From: Calditrichota bacterium | GTDB lineage: Bacteria > Calditrichota > Calditrichia > Calditrichales > J004 | DNA length: 64,000 nt | Reading direction: 5' to 3' | Assembly (NCBI GenBank): GCA_024277115.1 | Contig: JAJRVW010000052.1 | Span: 1-64,000, forward strand | Part shown: in pieces, positions 44,531 to 64,000 of the stretch | Layout: the number at the start of each line of letters is the position of its first letter | How positions within the stretch are numbered: the stretch's first letter is position 1 | Notes under the pieces: model-generated | Database searches by the model: none | What the model was told of the DNA's origin: nothing | Seen by the model: the letters and a program-made list of their open reading frames with translations, nothing else | Program-made: the position numbers and the translations under genes

Positions 44531-45223
44531 TTAAGCGGAAGTCGCATATTCGTAACGGCGACTACGATTATTAAGCTTAAGTTTTGCTAATTCCGCACGG
44601 ACACTAAACCAGCCCATCTTTGTATAACCATAACGCGCAGAGTTTAATTCGCGCTTAATTTTAAAACTGCCAAATTCCGGGTTTTCTTTTACCATGTGGC
44701 GAATCTTATCGGCAATGCCCATATCGGCGATTTCAATTTGCTGGGTTTGTTCCTGCACAACACCTTTGTCTTCCTGAGGCAAGTCCTCAAAACGGGAAGA
44801 TTCTACCTTGACCGGTTCCGATTTGGGCAAAGTTATTTCCTTTGCAACCGGTTGGCCTGCAGCTTCGGATGTTTCGAACTTTCCAACAGCTTCGTCAACT
44901 TTGTCGTATACATCCAGAATATGGTGAAATTCCAACAATTCAAAAATTTCATAAACATCGGGCACCATGCGTACTAATTTCAAATCACCACCATTTTCAC
45001 GGATAGATTTTATCTCACTGATAAAAATACCCCAACCGGCACTACTGATATAATCAACATTTCCCAGGTCGACAACTATAAAAAAGCGGCCTTGTTTTAG
45101 TAAAGAATCGAGCGCCCGCTCCAACTCAGAAGAAGTCGTTGTATCGATATAACCACCAACTTTTATAATTGAAATATGATTTCGGCTACCTGCGACTTCA
45201 GTAGAAACCTGAATTCCTTCCAT
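44531..45223 (-). CDS. STAS anti-anti-sigma-like protein with transposase-type HTH
   Basis: 230 residues. The STAS domain (1-115) has GGYIDTTTSSELERAL and DLGNVDYISSAGWGIFISE, where Ser60 or Ser61 is the expected phosphorylation site of SpoIIAA/RsbV-like switches. A flexible linker rich in E, P and Q (118-165) leads to a winged-helix-like module (168-225): IRHMVKENPEFGSFKIKREL, NSARYGY, LAKLKLNNRSRRYEY. The same module is at 733-790 of the SpoIIE-fusion protein encoded 30 bp upstream. It resembles the second HTH of IS3/IS481 transposases. Strong AAGGAGG ribosome-binding site. Probably the dephosphorylation target of its neighbour. Confidence 0.88.
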   Translation of the reverse strand: MEGIQVSTEVAGSRNHISIIKVGGYIDTTTSSELERALDSLLKQGRFFIVVDLGNVDYISSAGWGIFISEIKSIRENGGDLKLVRMVPDVYEIFELLEFHHILDVYDKVDEAVGKFETSEAAGQPVAKEITLPKSEPVKVESSRFEDLPQEDKGVVQEQTQQIEIADMGIADKIRHMVKENPEFGSFKIKRELNSARYGYTKMGWFSVRAELAKLKLNNRSRRYEYATSA

Positions 45224-45253: not shown

Positions 45254-48200
45254 TTAACTTTTTGGATCTTCGTCCAAACTTTTTAAGATGGCAGCATCCG
45301 TGACCAATTGTTTTTTTACAATTTTACTACGAATGTCATCCAATTTATTTATTTTTTGTTTTTTGGAAGATTGATTTGTTTGTAACTGCTTATTAATCAA
45401 TCCCAATTTGTTTATTTTTTCAATAATACTGCTTGAGCTATTTAATATATTTTCTTTTTCCAAATAATTCAATACAGTTTCGGCGTTTTCAAGTATCACG
45501 TCCTTTTTTAGCCCGGAAAAATTATTCTGAAGTTGCTCGAGAATACCTTGACCTTGTAAAAAAAGTTGGTGTACTTCTTGTAATTTTTTTAGTATCGGAT
45601 TTTTTAAGACAATTTTCAGAATTAAATTTAATTTCTTTGTATTTGCCTCTAAGGGGCCCGTTTTTTTCATTTTTTCTATAATTTCGGCCATACCGAAAAA
45701 GTCATCCTGGCACTCTTTATAAAAACGTTCAAGGATATTTTGATCGATCTTCTCAATTGCTTTTTCTGTTAAATCGTTTTTGGTTGGCACTGCTACTTGC
45801 TCAATCTGCTCTTTTTCTACAACTTTCACTGATTGACTTGTCTGCGGCTTATCTGGTGCTTTTTGCGTGGCAGGTGTTGCCTCCAGAGTTTTGCTTGCTA
45901 CCTTCTCTTCCTTGTTTTTTGCCGGGTCATATATTTTACCGGTTTGGTGCATTATTAGTGCACTGTCATCTTTTCGTGAAGTACTCATTTCCCGGATAAA
46001 AGGTTTTTTTGCCTCTTCGCTGTGGCCACCAACAGGTTTTGGCGGCGATGCTGAACCAGTCCGCTTTGATATTTCATTTGCAGAACTATCAAAATCCAGG
46101 ATCACTTTACCATCGAGCGTAAGCAGCGGTGTACCCGGTTGTTTAAGCCGTTTATTCTGCCCTTTCTCAACAAAACGCTGTCTCAGCTTATAAGTATTTA
46201 GGCGTTGCTTGATCAAGTCGTTGTATATCCGCCGTTCTTCTAATTCTACAAAACCATATTTTTCTGTATTCAGCAAGCTCGATATTTTTTTGGCGCCATA
46301 TTGTGGATTTGAGCGGATTATATCAAATATTTTAGATTTTACCTCGATGGAAATATGTTTTTTCTCAATATGGTCTTTTCCATCAAGAAATTCTTTTAAA
46401 GCATCCAGGCCGCCTTCATCCACAATCCCTTTATATTTATAATATTGGTATTGAGAGATTTTTAATTTGTCGCAGGCATCTTTAACACGCATGCCGTCAT
46501 TTATCAAATCGACAACATGTTTGTGCATTTTATAGATTATTTCACCGGCCATTAGTTTTTCTTTTACAGCCACAAAGGTGATGTCATCATTTTGAGGTGC
46601 GCCGCCCGTAAAATCTTTTAAATCATTTTTAATGCTTTTTACAAATTCCACCACGTCCAGATGGCCATCGTCCCGGATCGATTGCAGGAAACGTTCTTCC
46701 CTGTACAATTCACGTTGATGGTTCATGGCCTCCGTGATACCATCTGTATAAAGGACCAAAATATCATCTTCGCGCAGGCGAATGGAATCAGTTTCGATAC
46801 GTTTTTCAAAAAGGTCAATATCCGGTAATTGGATACCAACAGGGAAACCGGTCGGGTTTAGATAATAAGTTTGTTTTGCCGATGAGCGAAACAACATCAT
46901 TGGATTGTGGCCGGCGCTGGCATAATGGATAATCCGGTTGCGTGAATCGAGGATGATATAAAACATCGTTACAAACATCCCTTTTAGCATATCGCCAGTA
47001 ACAAATCGGTTTACACGGGCGAGCACATCCGCCGGGTTTTTATTCCCGCGCGATTCCAAGCGGATTGCCGTACGAATCATCGTCATAATTAACGAGCCCG
47101 GAACACCTTTACCTGATACATCGGCAACAACAATACCAACTGTTTCTTCATCAACTTCAACAAAATCAAACAAATCGCCGCCCACTTCTTTTGCCGCTTC
47201 ATAATATGAGCCAATATCAAATCCATCAACCTCGGGAAAATCACTCGGCAATAGCATTTGCTGAATTTCCTGTGCAACCTGAAGTTCTTTTTGAAGTTTC
47301 TGTTGTTCAATCAGGTTTACCTGGGCCTTTTGAAATTTCTGTGTCATTTCGTTAAAAGCCTGGGCAATTTCTCCGATTTCGTCGGAGGCATCAATATCAA
47401 TTTCGTCTTGATCTACTTTGCCACGAACAACCTGGCGAACCCAGTCGGCCAATCTATGAAAAGATTTTAATATCTGTGAAACAAGATAAAATGAACCTGT
47501 ATAACCGATTGCCAGAATTATAATCAATGCTATAATCAAAGTAAGCTGTCTGTCGCTAATTATATCATCTATCGTAGATTGTGCAATCCAGATATGCGCT
47601 TCGCCTAAAAAGAGCGGCTCCTGGTTAAACCCTTTTTCAGAGATTTCCGACACCACATCCAAAATCTCTAACGAGTCATTTATTGAATATCTGTAAATGA
47701 CCGCAAACTCAGAACTATCAATCATTGTGGCTGATTCGGGTAATTTAAATCTCCCACCGGATTCCGATTTATTGCCGGATTTTATACCTGCTTTGATGAT
47801 ATTTTTTGTATTTACAACAAATATTTTATTTATATCAATTTCGGTGCTGGTAAGTACAGAGGTGATATTTACATAAAGAGGAAAAGACTTATTCTCCAAC
47901 ATATCGGTGACAGAGTTTTCTGCTAGAGAACGTGCACCGGTGGCGGCGGCACCAAATATCTCTTCATCTACATCGCTCTTAAGGTTTATAAAAAGCAGGC
48001 TAAATATAATAGCAATTATAAATGTAAAAATAACCGATGAAATAAGTGAATAGCGTGTACGCATATTGAGTGCATGCCAAATCTGCATCACCTTGGGCTC
48101 ATCCGTTACTTCACGTACTTTTGTTAAACGGAACTCATTGCCTTTTTCGGTCACAACATATTGGATGTCATCCATCAGTTTGCGCATCATCAAGATACCC

Positions 48201-48532
48201 AAACCGCCTTTTTTACCAATATCAACATATTTTGCCAAATCCGGCGTATTGGCCTGTCGTGGATCGTAGCTAATGCCCTGATCAACAATTACAATGGTCA
48301 GGCTTAACCTACGGATAATGGCTTTTAATTTAATTTCACCATTTTTTATATCGCGGTAACCGTGCCGGATTATATTTGTACAGGCCTCGTCGATTACAAG
48401 TTTAAAAGAGTTGACCATTTTCTCGGAGTATTTATAGCGCTTTCCAATGTGCTCGATAAACTCCCTCACCTGCAGCAGATAACTCATCTGTGCCGGTATG
48501 GTGATCTCTTCTTTTTTTACGCTTCTAAACAT
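45254..48532 (-). CDS. RsbW-like kinase / sensor / HAMP / SpoIIE phosphatase / HTH fusion
   Basis: 1,092 residues. Domains in order are an anti-sigma-kinase-type HATPase (about 1-140; N-box DEACTNIIRHGY 48-59, DQGISYDP 84-91, GGLGILMMRKLMD 109-121) and TM1 (about 162-182). Then come an extracytoplasmic sensor (185-325), TM2 (331-352), HAMP (353-408) and a coiled coil. A PP2C SpoIIE phosphatase follows (430-658; GGDLFDF, DVSGKG, YTDGITEA, DDITFVAV, all acidic ligands present), then HTH1 (663-717), HTH2 (731-790) and a ~300-residue helical tail. The kinase and phosphatase for one STAS protein may be in one chain; the partner is encoded 30 bp downstream. The HTH pair resembles transposase DNA-binding arms. 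Confidence 0.9.
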   Translation of the reverse strand: MFRSVKKEEITIPAQMSYLLQVREFIEHIGKRYKYSEKMVNSFKLVIDEACTNIIRHGYRDIKNGEIKLKAIIRRLSLTIVIVDQGISYDPRQANTPDLAKYVDIGKKGGLGILMMRKLMDDIQYVVTEKGNEFRLTKVREVTDEPKVMQIWHALNMRTRYSLISSVIFTFIIAIIFSLLFINLKSDVDEEIFGAAATGARSLAENSVTDMLENKSFPLYVNITSVLTSTEIDINKIFVVNTKNIIKAGIKSGNKSESGGRFKLPESATMIDSSEFAVIYRYSINDSLEILDVVSEISEKGFNQEPLFLGEAHIWIAQSTIDDIISDRQLTLIIALIIILAIGYTGSFYLVSQILKSFHRLADWVRQVVRGKVDQDEIDIDASDEIGEIAQAFNEMTQKFQKAQVNLIEQQKLQKELQVAQEIQQMLLPSDFPEVDGFDIGSYYEAAKEVGGDLFDFVEVDEETVGIVVADVSGKGVPGSLIMTMIRTAIRLESRGNKNPADVLARVNRFVTGDMLKGMFVTMFYIILDSRNRIIHYASAGHNPMMLFRSSAKQTYYLNPTGFPVGIQLPDIDLFEKRIETDSIRLREDDILVLYTDGITEAMNHQRELYREERFLQSIRDDGHLDVVEFVKSIKNDLKDFTGGAPQNDDITFVAVKEKLMAGEIIYKMHKHVVDLINDGMRVKDACDKLKISQYQYYKYKGIVDEGGLDALKEFLDGKDHIEKKHISIEVKSKIFDIIRSNPQYGAKKISSLLNTEKYGFVELEERRIYNDLIKQRLNTYKLRQRFVEKGQNKRLKQPGTPLLTLDGKVILDFDSSANEISKRTGSASPPKPVGGHSEEAKKPFIREMSTSRKDDSALIMHQTGKIYDPAKNKEEKVASKTLEATPATQKAPDKPQTSQSVKVVEKEQIEQVAVPTKNDLTEKAIEKIDQNILERFYKECQDDFFGMAEIIEKMKKTGPLEANTKKLNLILKIVLKNPILKKLQEVHQLFLQGQGILEQLQNNFSGLKKDVILENAETVLNYLEKENILNSSSSIIEKINKLGLINKQLQTNQSSKKQKINKLDDIRSKIVKKQLVTDAAILKSLDEDPKS

Positions 48533-48557: not shown

Positions 48558-50456
48558 TTAATTTTGGCTTTTTGTTTTTGTAACCCGTTCACGTGCATTT
48601 TTTATAGCTTCGAGAACACGTTTATTATATGGATGAACTTCAAGAATTTCTTCCCAAATCTTGATGGCTTCCACATATTTTCCACTCAAGAATATATCCA
48701 AACCTAGATGATATTTTTTCTGGGATTCTGGGTCCAGTTCCTCTTCGGAGCTTAAAGTCTCTAATTTTGTTTTCTGATAATACTGTTTAACCAGGTCATT
48801 TGTCGGATCAAGTTTTAACGCTTCTTCAAGGATTTGTAGTGCTTCGGTATAATTTCCACCTTCATAAAGTAATAATCCCTGCTGTAAATTTTCCTGAAGT
48901 TTTATACGTGATGCAAGTGTTTCGACTTCATTTTGCAATTGGGCATCGTCGGCGCCAAGTAAACGGGCATCACCCAATAAACGCAATGCCTCCGAATAGT
49001 TTTTATTATTAAACTCATCACGACTTTTTTGTACAAGGCTGCCAACTTCTTCGCCAATGCGCCTTTTTGTAGTGGCAATTGAGTTCTTCAAAATTTGGTT
49101 GGATGGATCGCGTTCCAGGGCAATATTAAATTCGATCAACGCTTCAACAAATTGTTTTTTGTCTAATAATAGCCGGCCTTTGTTAAAATGTTCTTCTACA
49201 AAAGCCTTATCGCTTTCTGCCTTTTCCGTATCCAGCGCGCTTTTAACTGCAAGGGCTTGTTTTGCCTCGAAGTCTTTTTGTAACAAAGCATTGGAAGAAT
49301 CAAGCATTACACCGGCCCGGAAATGAAAAGGTTCTGTCCCAATAACCTGCTGGTACTCAACAATGGCATCAAGGTATTTATTCTCATTAAAGAAATCATC
49401 AGCCGCTTTAAGGTGCTTGGCAATAAATTCCTGTTTATCTGCTTCACGGATTTCCTTTTTAATCCGGTCTTCTTCTTTAATGCGCTCAGCTTCGGCTATC
49501 TGGAACATATCATCACGCGTTAGGCCAAAATTCATAGTAATAGAAACACGATGTGTAGCCGAAAATACATCGGGGAATTCCATCACACCATAACCATAAT
49601 CGATCTCGAACATGCTGTATTTTGCCCCTGCGCCAAATGCAACGGTTGAGCCATTATAACCAATCCGGATTTTACCTAAATCCTGGAAACTATATTCCGA
49701 GCCAAAATTGAATTTTAAATCCCGGTTCTGCGAATGGTTAACATCGAACATAACATCGACTGAACCCGAAGGGCCAAAACGGAATTTTTTAAGAATACCT
49801 AATTTCGTCGTAAGCGGAAATTCATCAATCTGGTCACCTTCATTTATTTGCGGTGCAAACAAGTTATGCACTTTTACGCCAAAAGCCCAATCCTGGGTGA
49901 GCATACTGCCAAGCCAATCAGGCCGGTACATCAAACCCAAATCAGCGCCCACGCCAACATCAACCAAATCACCTTCCGGCAAGTTGCCCCAGCCATTGCG
50001 GATTAAACGGACTGTGATGCCCGGTGTAATATTAAAAGGTAATTTTTTTGCATACGAGAAAAAAGCCTGGTATTCATCCCTGGAAATATTTGAGTTTGTA
50101 GGATTTTGAAAAGAGTCCCGACCATCAATCCCCGTTACCCCAACGCGCGCGATACCAATACCAAAGGTGCCTACTTTTAGGGTTGGATACGCATATCCAA
50201 AAAAATCGTATTGTACGCCTGTAAATAAAGTGGTATGAAAAAATGTTGCGCTCTGCTGGTTAATATACTCTAATCCAGCCGGGTTCCAAAATACAGCGGT
50301 TGGGTCATTGGCCAGTGCGGTATAAGCCTGTCCTAATCCAAGGGCACGCGCTCCAAACCCGAGGCGACTAAATGTACTCTCAGTACCTGCATCTTGTGCC
50401 ATTAAATTTGTACTGCACAAGAAAATTGTTAATAAAATTAAGAGTGTTTTTTTCAT
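48558..50456 (-). CDS. PorV/PorQ-like outer-membrane protein fused to TPR repeats
   Basis: 632 residues from the ATG at 50456, which has AAGGTG before it and a signal peptide (about 1-21, ending LMAQ); the open frame runs 37 codons further without support. Residues about 25-310 form a FadL-like barrel of the PorV/PorQ group: FSRLGFGARALGLGQAYTAL, NDPTAVFWNPAGLEY, GYGVMEFPDVFSATHRVSI. A charged helix then leads to about six TPRs (345-625; EALIEFNIALERDPSNQ, EALQILEEALKLDPTND, EAIKIWEEILEVHPYNK). PorV shuttles type IX cargo; the TPR part would face the periplasm. It lies 25 bp before the SpoIIE-fusion gene and 121 bp after the giant gene. Confidence 0.88.
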   Translation of the reverse strand: MKKTLLILLTIFLCSTNLMAQDAGTESTFSRLGFGARALGLGQAYTALANDPTAVFWNPAGLEYINQQSATFFHTTLFTGVQYDFFGYAYPTLKVGTFGIGIARVGVTGIDGRDSFQNPTNSNISRDEYQAFFSYAKKLPFNITPGITVRLIRNGWGNLPEGDLVDVGVGADLGLMYRPDWLGSMLTQDWAFGVKVHNLFAPQINEGDQIDEFPLTTKLGILKKFRFGPSGSVDVMFDVNHSQNRDLKFNFGSEYSFQDLGKIRIGYNGSTVAFGAGAKYSMFEIDYGYGVMEFPDVFSATHRVSITMNFGLTRDDMFQIAEAERIKEEDRIKKEIREADKQEFIAKHLKAADDFFNENKYLDAIVEYQQVIGTEPFHFRAGVMLDSSNALLQKDFEAKQALAVKSALDTEKAESDKAFVEEHFNKGRLLLDKKQFVEALIEFNIALERDPSNQILKNSIATTKRRIGEEVGSLVQKSRDEFNNKNYSEALRLLGDARLLGADDAQLQNEVETLASRIKLQENLQQGLLLYEGGNYTEALQILEEALKLDPTNDLVKQYYQKTKLETLSSEEELDPESQKKYHLGLDIFLSGKYVEAIKIWEEILEVHPYNKRVLEAIKNARERVTKTKSQN

Positions 50457-50577
50457 TTGCACCTTTTTTAAAACTTGTGACCCGTAACTTTCAACTTCAG
50501 CCGCCGGGTACCTACATTCTGGATTGTAACTTTTTTTTTCTTTTAGGCTATTATTATTTTTTCGCATACGCTCTTAC

Positions 50578-53500
50578 CTATTTAATATACGCAATTTTTA
50601 TAATTGCACGTTTAACGGAACCTCCGGCTGTGGGCTTGGATTCCATTACTCCAATATAGGCGCCGTTTAAAACACGCTTGCCATTATTATTTTTACCATC
50701 CCAGCTGAACTGCCGTGAATGTGCCCCGGTAAGTGTTTTTGTCTGGCTGCTCCAAACGAGCTCCCCCAGCAAAGTATAAACCCGGATGGTCACTTCGGAA
50801 GGTTCTTTTAGATAAACATTAAAATATGCAATACGCTCATCAGTGGTTTGCCCGCGTCCAAAGGGATTTGGATAAATATAAAAACTTTTATCCACATTGG
50901 AGGAAACCACAACTTGTGGCTCCGATGCCGACTCGGAGGCCCCGATAAAATCCTGACTGCTTTCGTTGACAGGCAATAATTTTATCGCATTGTTCACATC
51001 AAAAAGTGTAATGTCTTCCAGCTTAGAGCGGAAACTTTGGATGATGGCATCGGCCTTTACATCGGCGGTGATTACAATCGTCACAACAGAATCCGGTGCG
51101 ATGCGCAATTCTTTTTGGAACTCCAGGCCAAAAGCATTGGGCGAAGAGTTGTCCACAGTAATATCCGCGTAAATTTCAGCAATATTTGTGGCTGAAGTTT
51201 TCCCAAGCCCTTCAAGAAAATACTGCGCGTTTACAACTTTCAACCTTGCAAACATTTTTGCCAGTGCGGTAGCATCAAGTAAATTTTCTTCAAGCGGGTC
51301 TTCCCCGGCTTTATGAAAACCGATGGCCAGCGAATCAACAAATAAGCTATCGCCATAACCGGAGTTGGAAATATCGAAAGCCAATAACGGTAAATTATTT
51401 TGCCCTTGTACAAAACTTGCACTGCTCACAAGGTCTTTATTCGCCCGTAAAACAATCTCTTTCTGCCGCACAAGGATGGCATAAGGTGTAGTAGACGGCT
51501 TACTGGAGAATACTTCACTGCCGCTGTTTGCATCGCTTGGCTTGGTAGTAAAATTAAAGGTGATGCTGGAATTGACCGAACTTTCCGGCGCAATGATCCG
51601 CCATAAAAGGGCGTTTTCTTGGCCTAATAAGGTAAAAGATTTATCCACATTTTCACCATTTGCCAGAGTAAAACCCTCGGCAAATAATTTTTCCGTATCC
51701 AGGCTGATTACACCTTCGCCCGCAAGATCGGCATAAGCCAAAGGCGAAGTCGTTTCTGCAAGATCGGCCCAAACCTGTATTTGTAACTCCTGCCCAAACG
51801 AGAGTTGCTGCTTGTTTTCCGCTGATACCGGCCCGACAATTGTTGAACTAATTTTTAAATCCGGCCTTATTTGTATTTCAACTATATCATTTTGTATCAG
51901 GCTTTGCGTAGAACCCTGCGACGTATTTTTATCCACTCCGCTCAATACAACTTTTAACGTATCTTTTGGAGAGCCCGTATAATCAATCGGCACATTAATA
52001 TTTATGCTGGCCTTGCCTGTTACCTCATTCACAGGAACCGGTATTGTCAGTGCATTATCATTAGCAAAGCTTTCGGGCAAGAAAAATATAGCTTCCGGCG
52101 AGAGCAAATTGCTGCTTCGTTCACCTGCAGTAACCGTATATGTAAATACCTGACCCGTAGAAATTTTATCTGGTACGCTTGTAGAGGCAATCTTTATAAA
52201 AGCCGCTTTAACAACTTTTACTGTTTGCTCATCCGTATAATTTTCAACCTGCGCTGTTTTCTTCAACCGATCGTCCTCGGGCACACGCGTAATGGTGGCC
52301 ACAATCGATTCACCCACTGCACGGGTTGCATTTATCGATTGAAATGCTTGTAAAATTTTATTTCGTTTTGATATTTTCTGGTTGAGCGACAGCTCGATTA
52401 CTTCAGCATCGCGCCCTTTTTTAGCACTAAGAGCCGGCTTGTTGCCCTTCTTAAAAAGTGACGAAACAGAAAGAGGGGTCTCGGATGTTGCCCGCACCCA
52501 CCAATAAAAAACGGAATCGACCCGGAACTCACGCGTTGTAGAAGCATCGATCACAAGTCTGTTATCAACCGTATCTATCAAGCTAAAAAATTGTGTATCA
52601 AAAGTGGTTAGCTGCACTTCGCCCGTTTCCGAAACAGGCGATTCTTTTTCACGGTTTATTACGATACCTTTTAACCGGAAAGCCTGCCCTTCCGAGACTT
52701 CGCCATCAGTTGCACCATCGGGCTTATCGATGGAAAGCTGCAAGGCCAACCGCGCAATAGAAACGGTTTTGATCGCCAGCTTCTGCTCGGTTGTTTTATC
52801 AAATCCCTGGCTGCTCTTTCCAAATACACGGATGGTTAAAGAATCAAATCCCGTACCTTTTACTTCGGGCGCTTTAATTTTCCACACAACCTTTTTGGAA
52901 AGGCTGTCCAGGCTGATATCCGTAACCAGGTTCCCTTCCTGGATAGAATAGCCGCCATCCTGCGGCAGGATCAGTTCAACATTTTTCACTAAATCCAACT
53001 GCGGGTCAAAATTGATATTGGCCTCTACAAATATTGCTTCCTGGTTTATGGCCACAATAACCGAATCGAAACCATTGCCAAATTTCGCATCAAGAACAAT
53101 ATCCTTCACCTCAATAAAATCGATGCTCAAAGAATCCCTTTGTGCGGCAACCGATCTAAATGCCGAAATATTTTCATTCTCGTCCAATGGATGTTTATTG
53201 TTTTCCGGTGCAATAAAAAATGTTTTAATTCCTTCTCCCGCAGGCCCGTTCACGTTCCAAAATGTGGTGCTATCTATTTTAAAGGATTTGCGCGCTGTTT
53301 CGCCATCACTTAAGCGGATGCCCGTGCCCGTTGTATCTATAACAAGAAAATGACGGCCACCACTTGTGTCTACATCGGCAAAACCATTATTGCGTACCAA
53401 GGCCTTTATTTGGAAAGCCTGTCCGGTGGCGCGTGTAACCTGGTTAGCTGCGGCGCCTGTTTTATCAATTTGTAAAACAAGATTTGCGCGCTGGCGGACC

Positions 53501-56500
53501 TGCACATTATTCTGGACTTGATCTATTTTTACCAGGGCCGGGGCAAGACTGTTTTCATCGTTTGGAATGTTTTGTATGGTTGAAGAAATACTGCCACTTC
53601 CCGGATTTGACGAAGCGGTAAGGGTTTTATTAATAACTGCCGTGCCAAAATTATTGAGAACAAGCGTACTATCACCATTATCTGTAAATAACAAACCACC
53701 GTGGGCTTCCAACAATATTGAACCACCTGCCTCAAAAGCGGCATCACCGGAATTGGCAACCTGGGTCTGCAATACAAAAGATTGTTGCGTGGAAAGGATG
53801 CCATCTTTTGCACCTTGCGGACTGATAATCTGTGAACTAAGCGAAAGTGTCGCCCTTTCTTCGAGAAAAACAATCAGACCGGAAGACAAGGTACTGACCG
53901 TCTCGCCTGTATTAATATCATCACCATTTACAGAAACAGTGAAAGTATCTTTATTGGCGCCTTGTGTTGGCAACTGCGCCGGGGCAACAACCTGCCAGGT
54001 AACAAACTCGCCAGTAACCGCTTTAACCGATGCGCCCACAATAGAGTAACCCCGGCCTTCCGGTAGGTTTAAGGTAGCTGTCGTATCCTGCAACATTTTA
54101 TTCAGGGAAATTTGCGCCCTCAACTCAAATTGTTGTGCCGTTGAAACCGTATCATTGTTAGCGACCGGTCCACTTTTAATAAAGCTATCTACAGAAATAG
54201 AACCCGTCTCTTCGGCGCTTACAATAATCTCCGCATTGTCTTTGATTACAACAACAGGTTTGCCCGTATTGTCATCCAACGGAACCGATGCAAACTGGAC
54301 ACGCAAGACATCATTATTTGAAGCGGCGTTGGCAACAACATCCCAGGAAGCGGAGAGGATTTCCTCGGTAATTGTTTTATTTTGGGCCTCACCGGAAGTG
54401 AGGGCATAGTTGCCATTGCCCGGTAAAACCAAAGTTACACTTCCAGGCTGAAAGCCGGATGCGCCACCTTGCGAAATGGTCGCGCTGATCCTGAACTTTT
54501 GGTTTTTGGTAACGCGCAAAGTATCAAGCGAAGAATTAATTGAAAGTGTACGGCGGTTTTGAATAATTACTTTTTCAGAATTATCCAATGGCTGCTCCAC
54601 CGAAACCGTATTCCCCGCAAAATCAATTAAAGATTGAAGCGCGACCGAATAAACCGGATCAGTTGAAGGGATCGTTAAAATACTGTCTTTGGCAAATGTG
54701 AACGTGGCGGAACTGCCTGCAGCAAGGTTGGAGATTGAAACGGTATCAACGGCGGCAATCCCTTTTTTAAGGATGGCCAGGCCAGTGGCAACATTTACAG
54801 CGCCATTATTTGTAATATCCGCTGCAAGGATGAATGACTGCCCGTCATTGACCAAAGGCGCATTGGGCGTATTACCCGCAGAAGCAAAATAAAGGCTGTC
54901 TATCCGCAGCGAAGCAGGGATGATTACCTCAACCTGATCATTTGTCGTGATCGCCGAAGAAGATAAAGTTATGTCCTGTGTCCGGATATCGCGGAAAGAG
55001 ACCGTTGGCGCAGGTATTACCATTCCTGTATCTGCCGACTGGGCCACGTTAAAAAACACATTAAAAGTTTTCGTGCTGTTTGCCGCAACCGTATCAGGGA
55101 AAAGCCCCGTACTGATATTTATCCATTGGGATTTTACAGAATTGCCCTTGTTGGTAAAGTCAAAATCCATTGTGGTGATTAGCGCATCCGAAGCCCCACT
55201 GTTTTCCAGAGTATAATCTATTTTAACCGAATCTTGTCCACGCAGCACTTGTGTCTCCGTTATGGCAATTGGATTAAATGCCAGATCAGCTGTCGGGATT
55301 ATTTCGAAGGCGCTGGAAGCCGTGCCACTGTTTTCATAAGAATCACCATTGAGCATGCTGCCTTTTATTCGCCAAACTATATCTTGCAAGCCGAGCGGCT
55401 CGGATGAGGGGATTTCAATCTCAGAGAAAGCTACCGCTGTAATAGCGCTATCGCCACCCAGCGTAAAACTGCCTGTCAGGTTTCTACGTGGCACACCGGG
55501 GAATCCGGGGAACTCGATATATGTTGAATCCTGTGTTAAGGCCAAACCTGCCGTTCCGGTATTCTGAAATGAGAGTTGGAAAGATACTTTTTGACTATTT
55601 ATAACCGAATCAGGTGTGGTTGTATTGGCCACATAACTGGCCTGTGCAGCCGATTCAACAACCATTGTTGCTAAAGTTCCCGAAGTGATAATTAGTGTTC
55701 CACCATCCAAACTTAAGTGGCCGGATACATCTGTTGTGCCAATCGGATAGGTATCCGGGACATCAAAAATAAATTCGAGAACGGAATCACTCAACGGTAA
55801 TACCGTTAAAGTATCCGTAGCGCGCCTGCGTAAGTTTTGAACAAATTTTTCGCTTCCGGCAAGTTTAAATATTGGTTTTGTTGCAATGGAATCAATCAAT
55901 AAAGGTGCATTGGAATTACTGACCAGCATATTTACTTTAACATCTTTTGCGCCCTGAAGCAGGGTACTGTTATCGACAAAAACAATATCGGTAATTACAA
56001 TCAACCCTTCACCAAAAGCAAAAGACCCGGCATCGAGTGTGTTGTCATAATCAGCTTTATTTGTTGTCCCTTTTAAGCGAACTTGCAGGGTATGCTCACC
56101 CGGTGATAAACTTTTTAAAGAATCGGCGACAAAGATTAATTCTGTTGTATCGGGCGTTGCGGCGATTACCGTGGGGCTTGTGGCATCCAACGGTAAAGTA
56201 AGGGTACCGCCGATGGTGATGGTTGTTAATGCTGGGTTTAATACAATCGTTGCTTCCCCGCTATTGACAATTTTTATCCTAAACTGGACCAGCTCGTTGC
56301 CTGGCGAAGAGTTTGGCGTTGAAGAAGCAACACTTGGCGATGCCGGTGTCTGGATCAGGAAATGTGTCGGGTTGGCATTGGTGGCGCTTAATGCTGTACC
56401 GGAATTATTATCCTCACCATCCACTGTGGCATTTACACGTACAAGGCCATTAAAAATGTCGGATGCGACAAACGAATAAACCAAAGTATCTTTTGTGCCA

Positions 56501-59500
56501 CCGAGCAGGTTAAAAGGCGTCGCCGGCCCTAAAAACAATTCCTGTAATTCAGATAAATCAGGCGAGCTTAGTGCTGAGCCATTTATCGTTGCCGCGGCCT
56601 GGCCGTTATTGCTAATTTGTACATAAATCCGGCCATGTGTTTGCCCCTGACTGATTGAATCAGGCACGACCCAAAGCGTATCGACCGCCAACATAGCAAC
56701 ACTTTGTACGGCAAGTTGCCCGGCCAGGATTGCAGCAGAATGGATACTCTGTGTCCCATCATTTATATCCTGGCTTTCGGCGTAAGCATCCGCGGAATAC
56801 GTTCCGGTCAGTGCATTGGCATTGACATCCAAATCAAAATCAAAACGTGTATTTGTGCCCTCTTGCAGAACCAACGGAATGGACGGAATAAGCGTGCGGT
56901 TTATGCTGAATTGATCATTGTGTTCCACAGAAGCCAGCTTCATAACGAGACGTACCGAATCAAGTTGCGCAGAAGCACGGCTTACATTTACCGTATCCTT
57001 ATTGCTCACATAAACCGAGGCGATCAATCCGCTTTGTCCTGACGATGCCTGTGCCGGGTTAACACTTACACTGTCGATTGTAACAAGTGGCCGTACCTGT
57101 ACCCGCCAGGAGTCGTTTACACGCGTATCGGTAATAACCGATTTAGCCTGCGAAACGCTTTCAGTCACATTAAGCTGCGCAAAGATAGAATCCAACCCGG
57201 TTTGTGTAGTGCCTGTAAGCGTAACCGGAATTGTAAATACCCGGTCCAGGCCTGCATTTAATGTAAACGGTAAGGATGGAGAAACTGAGCCAATCGTATA
57301 ATTTGAATTGCCGTTTTTAAAATTAAGATTTACCGAGTCGATGACCGCTGCGCTTGTGCCAATATTTTCCACGCGTACCTGGACATCAATCGGGCCTTGC
57401 CCTTGAGAAACACTTGTTGGGTCGGTTTCAACGGAAACAATATTTACAGTGGGTGTTCCGGAAACGTCCCATTTATGGAATGCCGCGCCGGTAAATTGAG
57501 TGGAAGCGCCCGAGTAAATATTTTGATAATCAACCTGGGCAAAGAGGGAATCTGTCCCTGTGGCCGAGTTTGTAGCCACATCAATTGTGGTGGTCACTGT
57601 GACGCTGTCATTGCCATTAATCCTGAAATTAAAAGCTGGCCAGGTTTGCGTGTACATACCAATTTGTGGAACTAAACTCATATTTGTAACGAGGACAGGT
57701 GTCTGACCATCATTGCGTACGGTTACATCCACCAAAACCCCGGACTGTCCTTGTGTGACAATTGTATCAACCGAGGTAACCCGGCTTACCGTTACAACAG
57801 GCGCTGTTGTTACAAACCACGAATCCGGTGTGGTAGCGTTGCCGTCATTGGCCGAAGCAGATGTATTATTGGCATCATGTCCAAACCCACTTACATCCAA
57901 CAGGATAGTGCCCGTTGCCGTCGTATTGTTCACATCGATGGTCGCAATAAATTCCTGTTGCAATCCGCCATTAATGGTAAATGGCAAGGCCGGGCTAAGA
58001 TTTGTCAGATTGCCATATTCGTTCATCACCAGCGAATCAACCACCAAACCTGCTTGTGCCGTATTATCAATAAAAATACTGACTTGCTCTGTATCGCCCT
58101 GGCTGACACTATCGGCCACAGCAACTGTGCTTGCTATATCCATCACCGCTTGCGATTGTACCGTCAATACATCTGGCGCCGTGTGGATATTATTGTAGGT
58201 GCCGTTATTTTCGGTTCCTGCCAACTCCAATTTAAGAGAATCTACTGTTGCAACACTTGTACTAAAACTGTTAAAAATAAGTTGAACTGTTTGATTTGCT
58301 TCAACAATTCCCGGGCTGCTTGCCGCTAATTTCACAAAATTAGTTGGTGCATTTTTTGGATATAAGCGGGTGGCGCTTGTATCGATTATAAGGCGCGCTT
58401 CACCTGAATTGACGACTGTTACTTTGGGGATAAAAATTTGATTGGTCGAAACTTGTGTGGGCGTATTTTCTGTGATGGAAATATTGACAGCCTGTTGAAC
58501 CAGCCAACTTGCCGTAGAATCTGAATTTGCATCGGAAATGGCCTGTGAGTTATCCAGGTCCACACCATACACACTGGCATCCAAGGTAGCCACACCGGAT
58601 ACCGAACTCGAAAGAACGTCTGCATTTATGGTGTATTGCGCGCTTTGGCCCGAAGTTAAAATTGCCGCAGGTAAAACATAAAGTGAATCATACGATCCAC
58701 GTGAAATACTTAACGCGATACTATCGACCCGTGCGCTTGTAGCCCCGCCATTGCGAATTGTTACCAGTACGGGTACATTTTGCTGGCCTGTACTTACGGA
58801 GTCACGATCCGGCAGCACAGATAAAACTTCCAGGGCACCTGTACCAATTACATTCCAGGAAGCCAAAGTTGATGAAGTATTGGAGATGGATAAATTTCGG
58901 TTTAGTTCCGTGCTCTGCGCATCGCCACGCATTTCCATAGTTCCCAATTCCGCGCTATCCCCAACACCAATTGTATACGTGACATCCACACTATCCCAAC
59001 CAAGTAAAGTGGCCGGTAATGCAGGGGAAATATATTGCCGTGTATAATCACCATTTTTATTAGCGTTTAAACCATTAAAAAAGTTAAGTAAAACATTTTC
59101 TAAACGTGCCGTAGCGCTACCCTGGTTTTTTACACGCAGATTAACATTAATACCCGTTTGTCCTGTTGTTACTGATGCGGGTGCATTAAATATTTGGGTC
59201 ACGACCGGATTGGCGGGTGTTTGCAATAAAACCGTATCTTTTTTGGCATCGGCGCTTAAATCGGGCGTAAGCGCATTATTATTCAAACCATCTGTTCCAT
59301 AAGCACGCGCATCAATTTGAACATCGCCGGAATCGCGTGAGGCAGTAGAAGAATTTAATCTATATAAAATGACTGTGCTCTGCCCAGCCGGTAATGAAAA
59401 GGGCGTTACTTCAAAAACTGTAACCTGAGAATAGCTTAACGTATTTCCGGCATTGGGGTTGATCGCATCCACGCCAGTTAAATCTAATAAAACAGAATCA

Positions 59501-62500
59501 AGCAATGCTTCTGATTTTCCTGCATTGGTGACCCGTACCCGCACATCAAGATTATCCTGCCCCTGGCTGAACGAATTAAACGCGGCATAAACTGAATCAA
59601 TCCGCAAGGTAGAAGGACTGCCGACAAAAAAGGTATCGGCAATGGCTGCAACTGTTTCCTGTACGGCGGCGTTGGAAATACGGTCGCGTCCATCAAACTG
59701 TGCGCCCAGCAAAACTGTATCGGCTGCCGTTTGTAAAATATCCGATTGGAATTGATAATTAATGGTTTGCCCTGCCGTGATGGAATCGATGGCCGTTATG
59801 CGTGTATTTGTAGTTGAATTGGCCGGTAAATTGGTCAGCTGAATATTATCCACCAAAACCGTTCCCAGGCCTTCATTGCTGATTGTGACTTTAACAGGTA
59901 CGCCAAGTTGCCCGCGGTTTACCTCGCGCGTAGTTGATGTAACCGCATTGATTACGATATGCGCCGCGTCAAATACTGTCCAGGCATCAAGATAAGGGCT
60001 GGTCGTGCTAAGCGTTGCCAACGTGTTGTTATTTTGGCCGGTACTTATAGCGCGGATCGAGTCAAGCCCGGTAGCGGCATTGGCATCTATTGTTACACTA
60101 AACTGAACCGTTGTGGAAGCCCCGCCTGCCAGTGTAACCGGGAAAGTAGCATTATGCGTAAAAGTATTGACATTGCGTAAAAAGTCCAGATAAACCGAAT
60201 CCACATTGGCCGTAACCGAACCTGTATTTTGAATTGTGACATCAACCGTTAAACCACTTTGCCCCTGACTGACTTGCGTTGCCGTGGCCGATAAAGCCGT
60301 GATGGCCAGCGCACTTTTTGTCAACACATCCCAGGATGGATTGCTAACCGACGATGTGCGTGTAGTGAGCGAACTATTTATATCGGTTGCCGCAATACGG
60401 CTGGAGAAAACATCTGTGGCGACCGTGGCATTTTCATTTACATCAATTGTGTAGATAAAACTAACCGAGGCCGAATTGGTAATCGTTACAGGAAAATCAC
60501 TGATTGCATGCGACGATAAACTTGCAGAATAATCGGATGAAAGTGTACTGATTTCTGCGCCATCCACAAAAACAACGATGCTGTCCGGGCTGTTTATTTT
60601 TAAAGACGCCTCTCCATTATTTGTCACAGTTATAGTGAACGATTCTCCAGTCTTGCCCTGGCTTACCGTTGCCGAAGAAAGTGTTTGAGAGGTGTATCCC
60701 AGGCTGGCCACGGTTTGAACGGTTAAATCCGGTAAAGTGGCAGCGGTCGTGGTAATCGTCGAAGAAATCGTATTTCCGGTTTCCGTGCCATTTAATGCCA
60801 AAGTACCTACATATGTGTTGGATAAAATCGTTAAATTGGCCGCCGAAAAAGTTAAATCCGTTGAAGCGCCTGCTTCTAAAGTTTGATTGGATGCAAGGTT
60901 AAACACATCCGCACCAAAAGTAAGGGTGGTTGTGTTTTTATCCAGGATTATATCAAAGGCGCCGCCATTTGTCACCGAAGGTGTAAAAGCTACATTTTGT
61001 CCTTCGGAAACAGTTTGAGGGGAATAATCCGTCCAGGTTAACGTGGCCGAATTTATCGTACGGAATTCCTCAGTTTGATCCGCGCCCACATCACTCACGG
61101 CCTCGCCTAAGTTTGTACCGGTCACCGAGCCGTCAATTGTGTATAAGCCCAATGTTGTGCCACCGGGGATATCCATGCTAAAACGATAAATATTTGTCTG
61201 TCCGGTTAAAATAGAATCCGGATCGCTTGAAAGTGGCAAGAATGTTTCAGTAAAATCGGTTGGACTGACCGATAAGGTTGGGACAATACCACGAATCGTG
61301 TTGACCCCATTATTCTTAACGCTCATCTGGATTGTACTGATGGTTGAACCGACTTTTATGAGCGAATCGGGGATACTTGTAATCTGGATGGTGCCAATTT
61401 GCAAAGGCGAAATGGATAGTTCACCAGCGTCGGTTAATAATGTACCGTTCATTAAAGTATCAACACCGCTGCCAACTAAAGTGATTTCCGGCGTATAGCT
61501 GCCACTGGCAAAATTAGCAATTACAGCCGAATTGAACTGCAAAGTTGAGGTGCTGTTTGCAGGCAGGCTGGATGGCGTGCTTAAAGTTTCCGAGGTCGTT
61601 AATGCCCCATCGGAAATCACCAATGTGCTTTTTGTTGTATTTAATAAAACCGGGCCCGGGCCGGGGTTGGTAACCTGGGCCGAGAAGGCAACAGTCGCAC
61701 CTGCCGCAGTAGACTTTGGCGACAACGAGTTGCTTACATAACGCAGGCCATACACTTTAAAGCTGGCCGTATCTGCCGGGCTGGTCAGCACAGCTTGGGC
61801 GATGGACGAATCCTGGTCCGAAGGCGCGCGATAAACGGCCGAGACCAACCCTGTATCATTGGAGGTAGAAACTAAAGCCGACATATTTTCCGCTGGTAAG
61901 AAACTTACATTTTGTCCTGACACATAGTTTCCAAATTGGTCGAGTACACGCGCTTCAATTTTTTGGTTGCTTCCGGCCACCGTGGTTTTATTATTACCGG
62001 ATAAAACAGCTAAAGAATTTGCCGCCCCTGCATTGGCCGAAGCCGTATAAATAACCGTATCCAAACCTGTTAAAATAGCCAACAAAGTATCCGGACCGGA
62101 GCTTGTGCGTAAGGTCCATGAAACCGTATCCAAACCAGCCGCATTTGTTGTGGTTGAAGCAAGATTATTGATGGAGCCGCCCGTTGTGGGCTGCCAGGTA
62201 ACCGTGGTGCCCGATACAGCATTGCCAAATTGGTCAACCGCTTTTACGATTATATTATTTGTTAGCGCTGTTGCAACCGTTCCACTCTGCCCGTTACCCG
62301 AGAAGATAGAAAGTGCATTAACCGCATCAACGGTCGCGGTAGAAGTAAATACATTATCAAGTGTGATCAAGCTGGCGTTAAAAGCTGTTACCTCATACGT
62401 GCCTACCTTGTCGCCCAGGGTTAAAGTTGTAGATGCCTGGCCAGTCGCCCCTGTTGTAACCGAATTATTTAATAAAGAATAGCCCGTTGCCCCGGCAGGT

Positions 62501-64000
62501 GTAGATGTAACTGAAAAAGTAACCACAACGCCTGAAACCGGGTTGCTGTTGGTATCGACAACACTTACAACAAAATCGGCCAACCCTGTACCCACTACGC
62601 CTGTTTGGTTATCACCGCTTACAATAAGTAGCGAATCGGCATTTGAAGCCGTAACATCTGCGATAAATTCTACGGGTGGTAAACCTGTATACGTTGCGCG
62701 TGCAGTATCTTTTTGTGCAGAGGAGGAATTTCTTAAACGCCAGGAACTTCTTGAAATACCAATAACGTCAGTCGGGTCGCTGGAAGGTGTTAGTATCGCG
62801 CCATCGTTTGTGGTCGAGGTCCAGGCAATGGTTCCCCCCGGAACAACATTACCGTAAAAGTCGGTTAATTTGACGGCGAGCGAATCGGACAATACATTTG
62901 CCGCTGTTCCTGCAAAGGACTGAGAAGATGCCGCTGCAAGTGTGGTTGGCGTACCCGCGGTTACTTTGACAATTCCGCTATAATCGTTAATAGTGCCGGA
63001 TGTAATCTTTATCCGTCCGGAATTGACTGTCTCGGCTGTAAATACATTTGATGTTGCCGCCGTTCCCGTTCCAAAAGTTCCGATCACATCGCCTTCGGTC
63101 GTCCAGGTGACACTTTCATCCTGGCGATAATTGCCATTGGCATCATAACCCGCCGCGTATAAAGTAAGTGTTTCCCCGGCAGCTTTGGTGGAATCATTTA
63201 AAACAACTCCGCCACCACCTGTAGCCGTTCTGATCTCCAAAGAAGCCAATGCACCAACGGAAACCGTGATCGTCCCTGTGGCATCATCGGTAAAAGCGCT
63301 GCTTGTGGTGATTGTACCCGATCCATCAGACGTGGGCACATAAATTGTGCTTGACCCGCTTGTTGAACTGAGGTCGCCAACATCCAGGGTTCCGGTTACG
63401 CCCCAGGTCACACTTTCATTACCACTAAAATTGCCATCCGCGTCAAAACCGTTGGCATATAAATTTAAAACTTCACCGGTTGTTAAAGCTGGGGTTGTGA
63501 TTTCAGTTCCGGTTCCACCGGGTGCATCCATAATCAAAACAGAGATTGTCGTCCCGGCATTTATGGTAATTACACCGGTAATATCATCCACCACACCACC
63601 CGCATTATCCGTGGCGGTTATTTTGCCCGTTCCCGAATTTGTGGCGGTAAAAGTGATGCTGTTTGTCGGGTTGGATGGGCTTAGGTTGCCCGAGGCAATA
63701 ATGCCACTTCCCGTCCAATTGGACGAAACCAATCCTAAAAAATTACCCGTGGCATCATAACCTGCTGCATAAGCTGTGATGGCCTGATCGGCAGTAATGG
63801 TCGAATCAATCAATTCCGGGCCATTGGCCACATTGCTTGTCTGGATGCGAATCTCGGCCAACGAACCGGATATAACCGGCAGAACAATCGTATCCAAAAC
63901 CGTGTTAAACACAACCTGAATACTGTCATCCGCACCGGAGGTTGTGCTGGCCGTATATGTTGCTTCGGCTACTCCGTTGGCATCAATTACATCTGTGGTT
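50578..64000 (-). CDS. Giant secreted multi-repeat protein, 5' end outside the window (partial)
   Basis: At least 4,470 residues. The frame stays open to the window edge: upstream of the GTG at 63912 it reads DANGVAEATYTAS and SGADDSIQVVFNT, so the start lies beyond 64000. Three repeat classes are seen: invasin/Big_1-like Ig domains (64000 to about 61750; VKAVDQFGNAVSGTTVTW); about 17 CARDB-like units of ~140 residues (61740 to 54570), each opening with an S-x-GQ motif and V-x-V-x-V-x-N-x-G; and about eight longer stalk-like units (54565 to 51500). It ends with a FlgD/T9SS-like sorting domain (50905-50578): YIYPNPFGRG, VYTLLGELVWS, WDGKNNNGKRV. Likely a surface filament or adhesin exported with help of the PorV-like neighbour. 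Confidence 0.88.
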   Translation of the reverse strand, partial: TTDVIDANGVAEATYTASTTSGADDSIQVVFNTVLDTIVLPVISGSLAEIRIQTSNVANGPELIDSTITADQAITAYAAGYDATGNFLGLVSSNWTGSGIIASGNLSPSNPTNSITFTATNSGTGKITATDNAGGVVDDITGVITINAGTTISVLIMDAPGGTGTEITTPALTTGEVLNLYANGFDADGNFSGNESVTWGVTGTLDVGDLSSTSGSSTIYVPTSDGSGTITTSSAFTDDATGTITVSVGALASLEIRTATGGGGVVLNDSTKAAGETLTLYAAGYDANGNYRQDESVTWTTEGDVIGTFGTGTAATSNVFTAETVNSGRIKITSGTINDYSGIVKVTAGTPTTLAAASSQSFAGTAANVLSDSLAVKLTDFYGNVVPGGTIAWTSTTNDGAILTPSSDPTDVIGISRSSWRLRNSSSAQKDTARATYTGLPPVEFIADVTASNADSLLIVSGDNQTGVVGTGLADFVVSVVDTNSNPVSGVVVTFSVTSTPAGATGYSLLNNSVTTGATGQASTTLTLGDKVGTYEVTAFNASLITLDNVFTSTATVDAVNALSIFSGNGQSGTVATALTNNIIVKAVDQFGNAVSGTTVTWQPTTGGSINNLASTTTNAAGLDTVSWTLRTSSGPDTLLAILTGLDTVIYTASANAGAANSLAVLSGNNKTTVAGSNQKIEARVLDQFGNYVSGQNVSFLPAENMSALVSTSNDTGLVSAVYRAPSDQDSSIAQAVLTSPADTASFKVYGLRYVSNSLSPKSTAAGATVAFSAQVTNPGPGPVLLNTTKSTLVISDGALTTSETLSTPSSLPANSTSTLQFNSAVIANFASGSYTPEITLVGSGVDTLMNGTLLTDAGELSISPLQIGTIQITSIPDSLIKVGSTISTIQMSVKNNGVNTIRGIVPTLSVSPTDFTETFLPLSSDPDSILTGQTNIYRFSMDIPGGTTLGLYTIDGSVTGTNLGEAVSDVGADQTEEFRTINSATLTWTDYSPQTVSEGQNVAFTPSVTNGGAFDIILDKNTTTLTFGADVFNLASNQTLEAGASTDLTFSAANLTILSNTYVGTLALNGTETGNTISSTITTTAATLPDLTVQTVASLGYTSQTLSSATVSQGKTGESFTITVTNNGEASLKINSPDSIVVFVDGAEISTLSSDYSASLSSHAISDFPVTITNSASVSFIYTIDVNENATVATDVFSSRIAATDINSSLTTRTSSVSNPSWDVLTKSALAITALSATATQVSQGQSGLTVDVTIQNTGSVTANVDSVYLDFLRNVNTFTHNATFPVTLAGGASTTVQFSVTIDANAATGLDSIRAISTGQNNNTLATLSTTSPYLDAWTVFDAAHIVINAVTSTTREVNRGQLGVPVKVTISNEGLGTVLVDNIQLTNLPANSTTNTRITAIDSITAGQTINYQFQSDILQTAADTVLLGAQFDGRDRISNAAVQETVAAIADTFFVGSPSTLRIDSVYAAFNSFSQGQDNLDVRVRVTNAGKSEALLDSVLLDLTGVDAINPNAGNTLSYSQVTVFEVTPFSLPAGQSTVILYRLNSSTASRDSGDVQIDARAYGTDGLNNNALTPDLSADAKKDTVLLQTPANPVVTQIFNAPASVTTGQTGINVNLRVKNQGSATARLENVLLNFFNGLNANKNGDYTRQYISPALPATLLGWDSVDVTYTIGVGDSAELGTMEMRGDAQSTELNRNLSISNTSSTLASWNVIGTGALEVLSVLPDRDSVSTGQQNVPVLVTIRNGGATSARVDSIALSISRGSYDSLYVLPAAILTSGQSAQYTINADVLSSSVSGVATLDASVYGVDLDNSQAISDANSDSTASWLVQQAVNISITENTPTQVSTNQIFIPKVTVVNSGEARLIIDTSATRLYPKNAPTNFVKLAASSPGIVEANQTVQLIFNSFSTSVATVDSLKLELAGTENNGTYNNIHTAPDVLTVQSQAVMDIASTVAVADSVSQGDTEQVSIFIDNTAQAGLVVDSLVMNEYGNLTNLSPALPFTINGGLQQEFIATIDVNNTTATGTILLDVSGFGHDANNTSASANDGNATTPDSWFVTTAPVVTVSRVTSVDTIVTQGQSGVLVDVTVRNDGQTPVLVTNMSLVPQIGMYTQTWPAFNFRINGNDSVTVTTTIDVATNSATGTDSLFAQVDYQNIYSGASTQFTGAAFHKWDVSGTPTVNIVSVETDPTSVSQGQGPIDVQVRVENIGTSAAVIDSVNLNFKNGNSNYTIGSVSPSLPFTLNAGLDRVFTIPVTLTGTTQTGLDSIFAQLNVTESVSQAKSVITDTRVNDSWRVQVRPLVTIDSVSVNPAQASSGQSGLIASVYVSNKDTVNVSRASAQLDSVRLVMKLASVEHNDQFSINRTLIPSIPLVLQEGTNTRFDFDLDVNANALTGTYSADAYAESQDINDGTQSIHSAAILAGQLAVQSVAMLAVDTLWVVPDSISQGQTHGRIYVQISNNGQAAATINGSALSSPDLSELQELFLGPATPFNLLGGTKDTLVYSFVASDIFNGLVRVNATVDGEDNNSGTALSATNANPTHFLIQTPASPSVASSTPNSSPGNELVQFRIKIVNSGEATIVLNPALTTITIGGTLTLPLDATSPTVIAATPDTTELIFVADSLKSLSPGEHTLQVRLKGTTNKADYDNTLDAGSFAFGEGLIVITDIVFVDNSTLLQGAKDVKVNMLVSNSNAPLLIDSIATKPIFKLAGSEKFVQNLRRRATDTLTVLPLSDSVLEFIFDVPDTYPIGTTDVSGHLSLDGGTLIITSGTLATMVVESAAQASYVANTTTPDSVINSQKVSFQLSFQNTGTAGLALTQDSTYIEFPGFPGVPRRNLTGSFTLGGDSAITAVAFSEIEIPSSEPLGLQDIVWRIKGSMLNGDSYENSGTASSAFEIIPTADLAFNPIAITETQVLRGQDSVKIDYTLENSGASDALITTMDFDFTNKGNSVKSQWINISTGLFPDTVAANSTKTFNVFFNVAQSADTGMVIPAPTVSFRDIRTQDITLSSSAITTNDQVEVIIPASLRIDSLYFASAGNTPNAPLVNDGQSFILAADITNNGAVNVATGLAILKKGIAAVDTVSISNLAAGSSATFTFAKDSILTIPSTDPVYSVALQSLIDFAGNTVSVEQPLDNSEKVIIQNRRTLSINSSLDTLRVTKNQKFRISATISQGGASGFQPGSVTLVLPGNGNYALTSGEAQNKTITEEILSASWDVVANAASNNDVLRVQFASVPLDDNTGKPVVVIKDNAEIIVSAEETGSISVDSFIKSGPVANNDTVSTAQQFELRAQISLNKMLQDTTATLNLPEGRGYSIVGASVKAVTGEFVTWQVVAPAQLPTQGANKDTFTVSVNGDDINTGETVSTLSSGLIVFLEERATLSLSSQIISPQGAKDGILSTQQSFVLQTQVANSGDAAFEAGGSILLEAHGGLLFTDNGDSTLVLNNFGTAVINKTLTASSNPGSGSISSTIQNIPNDENSLAPALVKIDQVQNNVQVRQRANLVLQIDKTGAAANQVTRATGQAFQIKALVRNNGFADVDTSGGRHFLVIDTTGTGIRLSDGETARKSFKIDSTTFWNVNGPAGEGIKTFFIAPENNKHPLDENENISAFRSVAAQRDSLSIDFIEVKDIVLDAKFGNGFDSVIVAINQEAIFVEANINFDPQLDLVKNVELILPQDGGYSIQEGNLVTDISLDSLSKKVVWKIKAPEVKGTGFDSLTIRVFGKSSQGFDKTTEQKLAIKTVSIARLALQLSIDKPDGATDGEVSEGQAFRLKGIVINREKESPVSETGEVQLTTFDTQFFSLIDTVDNRLVIDASTTREFRVDSVFYWWVRATSETPLSVSSLFKKGNKPALSAKKGRDAEVIELSLNQKISKRNKILQAFQSINATRAVGESIVATITRVPEDDRLKKTAQVENYTDEQTVKVVKAAFIKIASTSVPDKISTGQVFTYTVTAGERSSNLLSPEAIFFLPESFANDNALTIPVPVNEVTGKASININVPIDYTGSPKDTLKVVLSGVDKNTSQGSTQSLIQNDIVEIQIRPDLKISSTIVGPVSAENKQQLSFGQELQIQVWADLAETTSPLAYADLAGEGVISLDTEKLFAEGFTLANGENVDKSFTLLGQENALLWRIIAPESSVNSSITFNFTTKPSDANSGSEVFSSKPSTTPYAILVRQKEIVLRANKDLVSSASFVQGQNNLPLLAFDISNSGYGDSLFVDSLAIGFHKAGEDPLEENLLDATALAKMFARLKVVNAQYFLEGLGKTSATNIAEIYADITVDNSSPNAFGLEFQKELRIAPDSVVTIVITADVKADAIIQSFRSKLEDITLFDVNNAIKLLPVNESSQDFIGASESASEPQVVVSSNVDKSFYIYPNPFGRGQTTDERIAYFNVYLKEPSEVTIRVYTLLGELVWSSQTKTLTGAHSRQFSWDGKNNNGKRVLNGAYIGVMESKPTAGGSVKRAIIKIAYIK

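Follow-up and report, generated by a model that had tools for sequence, protein, structure and literature searches.

The window, i.e., the whole stretch of DNA analysed here (64,000 nucleotides, positions 1 to 64,000 of contig JAJRVW010000052.1 of a Calditrichota bacterium), encodes a membrane-anchored sensor protein that carries a kinase and a phosphatase of the partner-switching families on one chain, next to the gene of a STAS protein that ends in a wHTH. That this constitutes a bifunctional switch is well supported and in our judgement very probable, and a self-contained switch on one membrane sensor beside its STAS substrate, as proposed in a preliminary description of the sequence, is the best-supported reading of the locus. 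The fuller reading, in which the STAS-wHTH protein is the output of the membrane-anchored switch and probably binds DNA without a sigma factor, stands for us on an even balance.

The uninterrupted reading frame of the sensor protein specifies 1,092 amino acids, in which an RsbW/SpoIIAB-type HATPase is followed by a transmembrane segment, a variable extracytoplasmic domain, a second transmembrane segment, a HAMP domain, a SpoIIE phosphatase and two consecutive HTHs of transposase-like type (Table 1). Pfam matches to HATPase_c_2 (residues 12-138, 7e-25), HAMP (residues 350-399, 4e-9) and SpoIIE (residues 462-657, 5e-49) each lie above the gathering score, and hydropathy gives two transmembrane segments, in agreement with the HATPase, the two membrane helices with sensor and HAMP domain, and the complete PP2C phosphatase that the preliminary description had assigned to one chain. 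The N box (E49/N53), G1 box (D84/G86) and G2 box (GGLG, 109-112) of the HATPase are present, and the domain aligns with RsbW (3e-17) and SpoIIAB (7e-7) of B. subtilis, E46 and N50 of SpoIIAB corresponding to E49 and N53 of the kinase; the concern that residues 1-145 might have no HATPase similarity is thus removed, as the similarity is strong. The SpoIIE domain retains the metal-binding aspartates in the motifs GGD (D453), VADVSGKG (D471), YTDG (D597) and NDD (D649/D650). No match to the extracytoplasmic sensor domain (about residues 190-322) was found among the Pfam models. Located 3' of HTH2, a PGTPLLTLDG motif is near-invariant across Calditrichia, while the remaining tail diverges.

Table 1. 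Features of the kinase/phosphatase gene, its STAS-wHTH partner and the upstream neighbour (positions in the window).
Feature	Position	Strand	Basis
Bifunctional kinase/phosphatase sensor protein	45254..48532	-	1,092-aa ORF, Pfam, orthologs
RsbW/SpoIIAB-type HATPase (serine kinase) domain, residues 9-141	48110..48508	-	Pfam, RsbW/SpoIIAB alignment, ortholog columns
Transmembrane segment 1, about residues 159-189	47966..48058	-	hydropathy
Variable extracytoplasmic sensor domain, about residues 190-322	47567..47965	-	low column identity
Transmembrane segment 2, about residues 323-355	47468..47566	-	hydropathy
HAMP domain, residues 350-399	47336..47485	-	Pfam
Conserved linker from HAMP to phosphatase, residues 400-430	47243..47335	-	84% column identity
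SpoIIE-type PP2C phosphatase, residues 431-658	46559..47242	-	Pfam, catalytic aspartates
HTH1, residues 661-722, transposase-like	46367..46552	-	NCBIfam, Pfam, AlphaFold
HTH2, residues 723-790, homologous to the wHTH of the STAS partner	46163..46366	-	NCBIfam, BLAST, hhalign, AlphaFold
Near-invariant motif KxPGTPLLTLDGxV, residues 795-811	46100..46150	-	ortholog alignment
C-terminal tail, residues 812-1092, weakly conserved	45257..46099	-	ortholog alignment
STAS-wHTH partner protein, 230 aa	44531..45223	-	ORF, Pfam, ortholog alignment
STAS domain, residues 5-116	44876..45211	-	Pfam, fold matches, SpoIIAA alignment
Ser61	45041..45043	-	alignment to SpoIIAA phosphorylated Ser58; invariant
Variable linker, residues 117-164, low model confidence, probably disordered	44732..44875	-	alignment, model
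C-terminal wHTH, residues 165-230, strongly basic	44534..44731	-	BLAST, hhalign, model, charge
PorV/PorQ-family outer-membrane protein with TPR repeats, upstream neighbour	48558..50567	-	linkage kept across phyla

The STAS partner reported earlier beside the kinase is encoded 30 bp downstream of it, and the wHTH at its own C-terminus, which had been overlooked, is to us the most informative part of the locus, being homologous to HTH2 of the kinase (BLAST 7e-7; hhalign probability 97.8%, E 1.2e-12). In a genome-wide HTH-profile search this C-terminus ranks second. Both modules are strongly positive, the mean net charge of the last 60 residues of the STAS protein being +9.5. The STAS domain brings the substrate side of partner switching to the HATPase boxes and PP2C aspartates: a serine occupies the position of SpoIIAA Ser58, the S60-S61 pair and most of the domain are invariant in 27 orthologs, and among the best matches of its model to solved structures are SpoIIAA and RsbV, each in complex with its kinase. 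Elsewhere in the same genome (G000), a separate trio of STAS, HATPase and SpoIIE genes is found on contig C216 (L074), with a STAS protein of 117 amino acids that is 39% identical to the STAS protein of the window, and contigs C36, C63 and C138 carry several SpoIIE-domain genes a few kilobases apart.

Two HTH modules had been described for the kinase, which agrees with a match of the NCBIfam IS481 transposase model to residues 676-798 (2e-7, below the whole-family cut-off) and with two helical HTH-like units modelled by AlphaFold (pLDDT 76; inter-domain confidence is low, pTM 0.43). Pfam HTH_28/HTH_23 match the region below the cut-off (E about 0.006). A DDE/rve catalytic domain as in IS481 transposases is missing from the kinase (no rve match in Pfam), a sequence search for solved-structure homologs of the HTH region returned none, and Foldseek matches to TnsB and to Pax paired domains (Pax5) are weak (E 0.05-0.09) and were not taken as proof.

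The preliminary description had proposed a search for the same architecture among relatives, and the protein was found in 24 of the 24 Calditrichia genomes that are at least 90% complete (own genome counted) as well as in other phyla. Every catalytic residue examined is conserved in the 27 aligned orthologs. The mean identity per column to the window protein amounts to 81% in the HATPase and 78% in SpoIIE, against 57% in HTH2, 45% in HTH1 and, for the sensor, 27%. A comparison of two congeneric species, for which dS is saturated, gives a dN of 0.03-0.05 in the HATPase, SpoIIE, HTH1 and HTH2 and of 0.24 in the sensor region, so that constraint on the HTHs is at this distance similar to that on the enzymes. 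A sensor that diverges while the enzymes are frozen fits one switch reading different signals. That every near-complete genome of the class that was tested has the switch, and that its STAS domain hardly varies, suggests a core regulatory role in this class.

A degenerate or chimeric gene, i.e., an assembly artefact or an inactive fusion, has a negligible probability in view of these orthologs. One relative (L013/L048, the same gene) does have an in-frame TAG that ends the reading frame at 724 amino acids, inside the HTH region, and in some relatives a contig end interrupts the gene, but it is intact in independent assemblies throughout the class, including the single-contig genome G006, its catalytic residues are conserved and its dN is low. 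An artefact or pseudogene is therefore ruled out, and the fragmentation in related genomes about which the preliminary description had warned did not materialize, the gene being intact in nearly all of them.

Outside the class, one phylum has a fused relative matching at 1e-60 or below in 37 of its 40 genomes, with the span from kinase to phosphatase covered in all but one, and in about nine further genomes the match extends across the kinase, the sensor, the phosphatase and the HTH. Uniqueness to Calditrichota can thus be discarded. In a phylogenetic tree the fused HATPases group apart from the five standalone ones sampled (support 90/98) and those of Calditrichia form one group (96/93), a topology that would fit a single ancient fusion without proving it. 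Several loci whose kinase has no HTHs (L073, L117, L121, L095, L096) retain the STAS-wHTH protein, and the STAS protein of some other relatives is devoid of a wHTH (e.g., L087-L089, L098), which indicates that the switch does not depend on the wHTH in all lineages. As each occurs independently, an obligate pairing of the STAS wHTH with the kinase HTHs was rejected.

Calditrichia loci with enough flanking sequence share an operon in which a large surface-type protein and a PorV/TPR protein precede the kinase and STAS genes, followed by DUF4159 and DUF4175-like genes. The large protein in the window (50578-63912) is a giant with a FlgD/T9SS-tail-like C-terminus, encoded upstream of the PorV/PorQ gene and the switch; its gene starts near the contig end. 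A DUF456 membrane-protein gene that follows STAS in many relatives (e.g., L040:12011-12511) is absent from the window. In other phyla the PorV-family neighbour is kept and the STAS-wHTH gene mostly so, and seven of these loci (L112-L116, L126, L129; e.g., L112:4704-5486) have a ParA-family ATPase gene exactly between the kinase and STAS genes, L126 and L129 with an additional 96-aa ORF that has no significant Pfam match.

The neighbourhood bears on an alternative in which the HTHs would be protein-docking or nucleoid-tethering devices and the output would concern the surface or secretion machinery or cell positioning, not transcription, comparable to the SypE/SypA biofilm switch, where SypE works downstream of syp transcription (PMC3610818). 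Both the conserved linkage to a PorV-family protein, usually also to a large protein with a FlgD/T9SS-tail-like C-terminus, and the ParA gene would suit such a role, but no ParA gene was found in the Calditrichia loci. Similarly, the third helix of the STAS wHTH, its putative recognition helix, begins with a conserved G-W-(W/F) that is hydrophobic and not composed of typical base-contacting residues, so that protein docking fits equally well, but the strong positive charge of HTH2 and of the STAS wHTH and the likeness of the HTHs to transposase DNA-binding domains argue against it. We regard this alternative as unlikely.

In the reading we prefer, that of a membrane-anchored partner switch with the STAS-wHTH protein as output, the N-terminal HATPase would, judging from its family, phosphorylate Ser61 of the neighbouring STAS protein, and the SpoIIE domain of the same chain would take the phosphate off again. 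The fast-evolving extracytoplasmic domain might decide through the second transmembrane segment, HAMP and the conserved linker which activity wins; signalling through a helical linker to a PPM phosphatase dimer is supported for RsbU and was modelled for a HAMP example (PMC12143880). The STAS protein would be substrate and output at once, its phosphorylation state altering what the STAS domain binds (the kinase, itself or a target), and the binding state would determine whether the wHTH acts, most likely in DNA binding and control of transcription without a sigma factor, as in CapS. The double HTH of the kinase would be an extra module, confined to certain lineages, by which the sensor may be anchored on DNA or at the sites of the STAS-wHTH protein. 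The direction of the signal, DNA binding and the target genes we only infer. Retention of the wHTH where the kinase has no HTHs, its charge and the lack of a SigB/F-type sigma factor support the STAS-wHTH protein as a DNA-binding effector; the aromatic residues with which the presumed recognition helix opens and the relatives with wHTH-free STAS proteins speak against it, no operator site was found, and in our judgement DNA binding by this protein is about as probable as its opposite.

Classical sigma control is a further alternative: the HATPase would also sequester a sigma factor, unphosphorylated STAS would free it, and the HTH modules would be accessory. The HATPase does resemble RsbW and SpoIIAB most, the bifunctional HsbR and CrsR bind RpoS (PMC6482189), and among the 19 sigma-70 region-2 matches of the genome are two group 3 sigmas of the FliA/WhiG type. 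However, neither of the two meets the SigB/F/G family cut-off or lies near the kinase-STAS operon, no SigB/F-type target sigma was found over the SigBFG cut-off in the genome (95.6% complete) or in the operon, and the conserved wHTH on the STAS protein would be left unexplained, which makes sigma control unlikely. The earlier idea of HTH domains acting in place of, or alongside, sigma-factor control is plausible given the precedent of CapS, but is better founded on the STAS wHTH than on the HTHs of the kinase to which it had been tied. A role as regulator of anti-phage defence was dismissed, as neither the kinase nor the STAS protein has a PADLOC match.

More tentatively, and possible rather than probable, a transmembrane sensor that holds the two opposing enzymes and a STAS-wHTH transcription factor that is their substrate, both with the same transposase-like DNA-binding module, might form a reversible membrane-to-DNA switch without sigma factor. 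It would serve several candidate phyla as a general regulator, with a link to PorV-type surface secretion and, in some lineages, to a ParA ATPase. Most of these proteins belong to organisms that have become known chiefly through metagenomes. Such a switch would form a bridge between partner switching of the sigma type and the STAS-wHTH repressors described recently, and it would offer a testable case of opposing enzymes, a sensor and DNA-binding-like parts that were joined and then inherited together.

The catalytic and substrate families are the same three as in RsbU/RsbV/RsbW and SpoIIE/SpoIIAA/SpoIIAB, which are separate proteins, whereas kinase and phosphatase are fused here. The preliminary description had considered this fusion unusual, but it is known from SypE, HsbR, CrsR and Rv1364c, and it is the form with a membrane sensor and a shared HTH that is new. 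In Vibrio fischeri, opposed kinase and phosphatase activities on the one chain of SypE were shown to act on a serine of the STAS protein SypA (PMC3610818). SypE likewise has the kinase N-terminal and the phosphatase C-terminal, but a central cytoplasmic REC domain, for which Pfam gave no match in the 1,092-aa protein, takes the place of the two transmembrane helices, extracytoplasmic domain and HAMP; the consulted part of that paper describes no HTH on SypE or SypA, whereas both proteins carry one here. HsbR/HsbA and CrsR/CrsA similarly employ a bifunctional protein with PP2C and kinase/anti-sigma domains acting on a STAS protein, but with the order REC-PP2C-kinase, a phosphorelay input, an output that binds RpoS and no membrane sensor in the domain description (PMC6482189). 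Rv1364c of Mycobacterium tuberculosis also has a phosphatase and an RsbW-like kinase on one chain (PDB 3ke6), but its order is PAS-PP2C-HATPase-STAS, with the STAS domain on the same chain and no transmembrane segment or HTH in the description consulted, and the title of a cited paper reports a loss of kinase activity. A parallel for the output is CapK/CapS, for which DNA binding without a sigma factor was shown in 2026: CapS is a STAS-wHTH repressor, phosphorylated by a GHKL kinase that also has an HTH, and its DNA binding is lost upon phosphorylation of the STAS serine or a phosphomimetic change there (PMC13373217). CapK (HTH-STAS-GHKL) is, however, activated by ssDNA and has no transmembrane segment, HAMP or phosphatase (PMC13373217), all three of which the kinase described here possesses, and the wHTH of CapS is described as MarR-like (PMC13373217), whereas the one found here may be of another type, being homologous to the IS481-transposase-like HTH2 of the kinase. 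The literature searched holds no description of a membrane-sensor version with a shared DNA-binding-like module, and nothing on partner switching in Calditrichota was found in the openly licensed literature searched. The finding broadens the range of bifunctional partner switches already known and does not establish a kind of its own; what is new is the membrane sensor between the two enzymes, the transposase-like module that sensor and substrate have in common, and how widely the operon is conserved.
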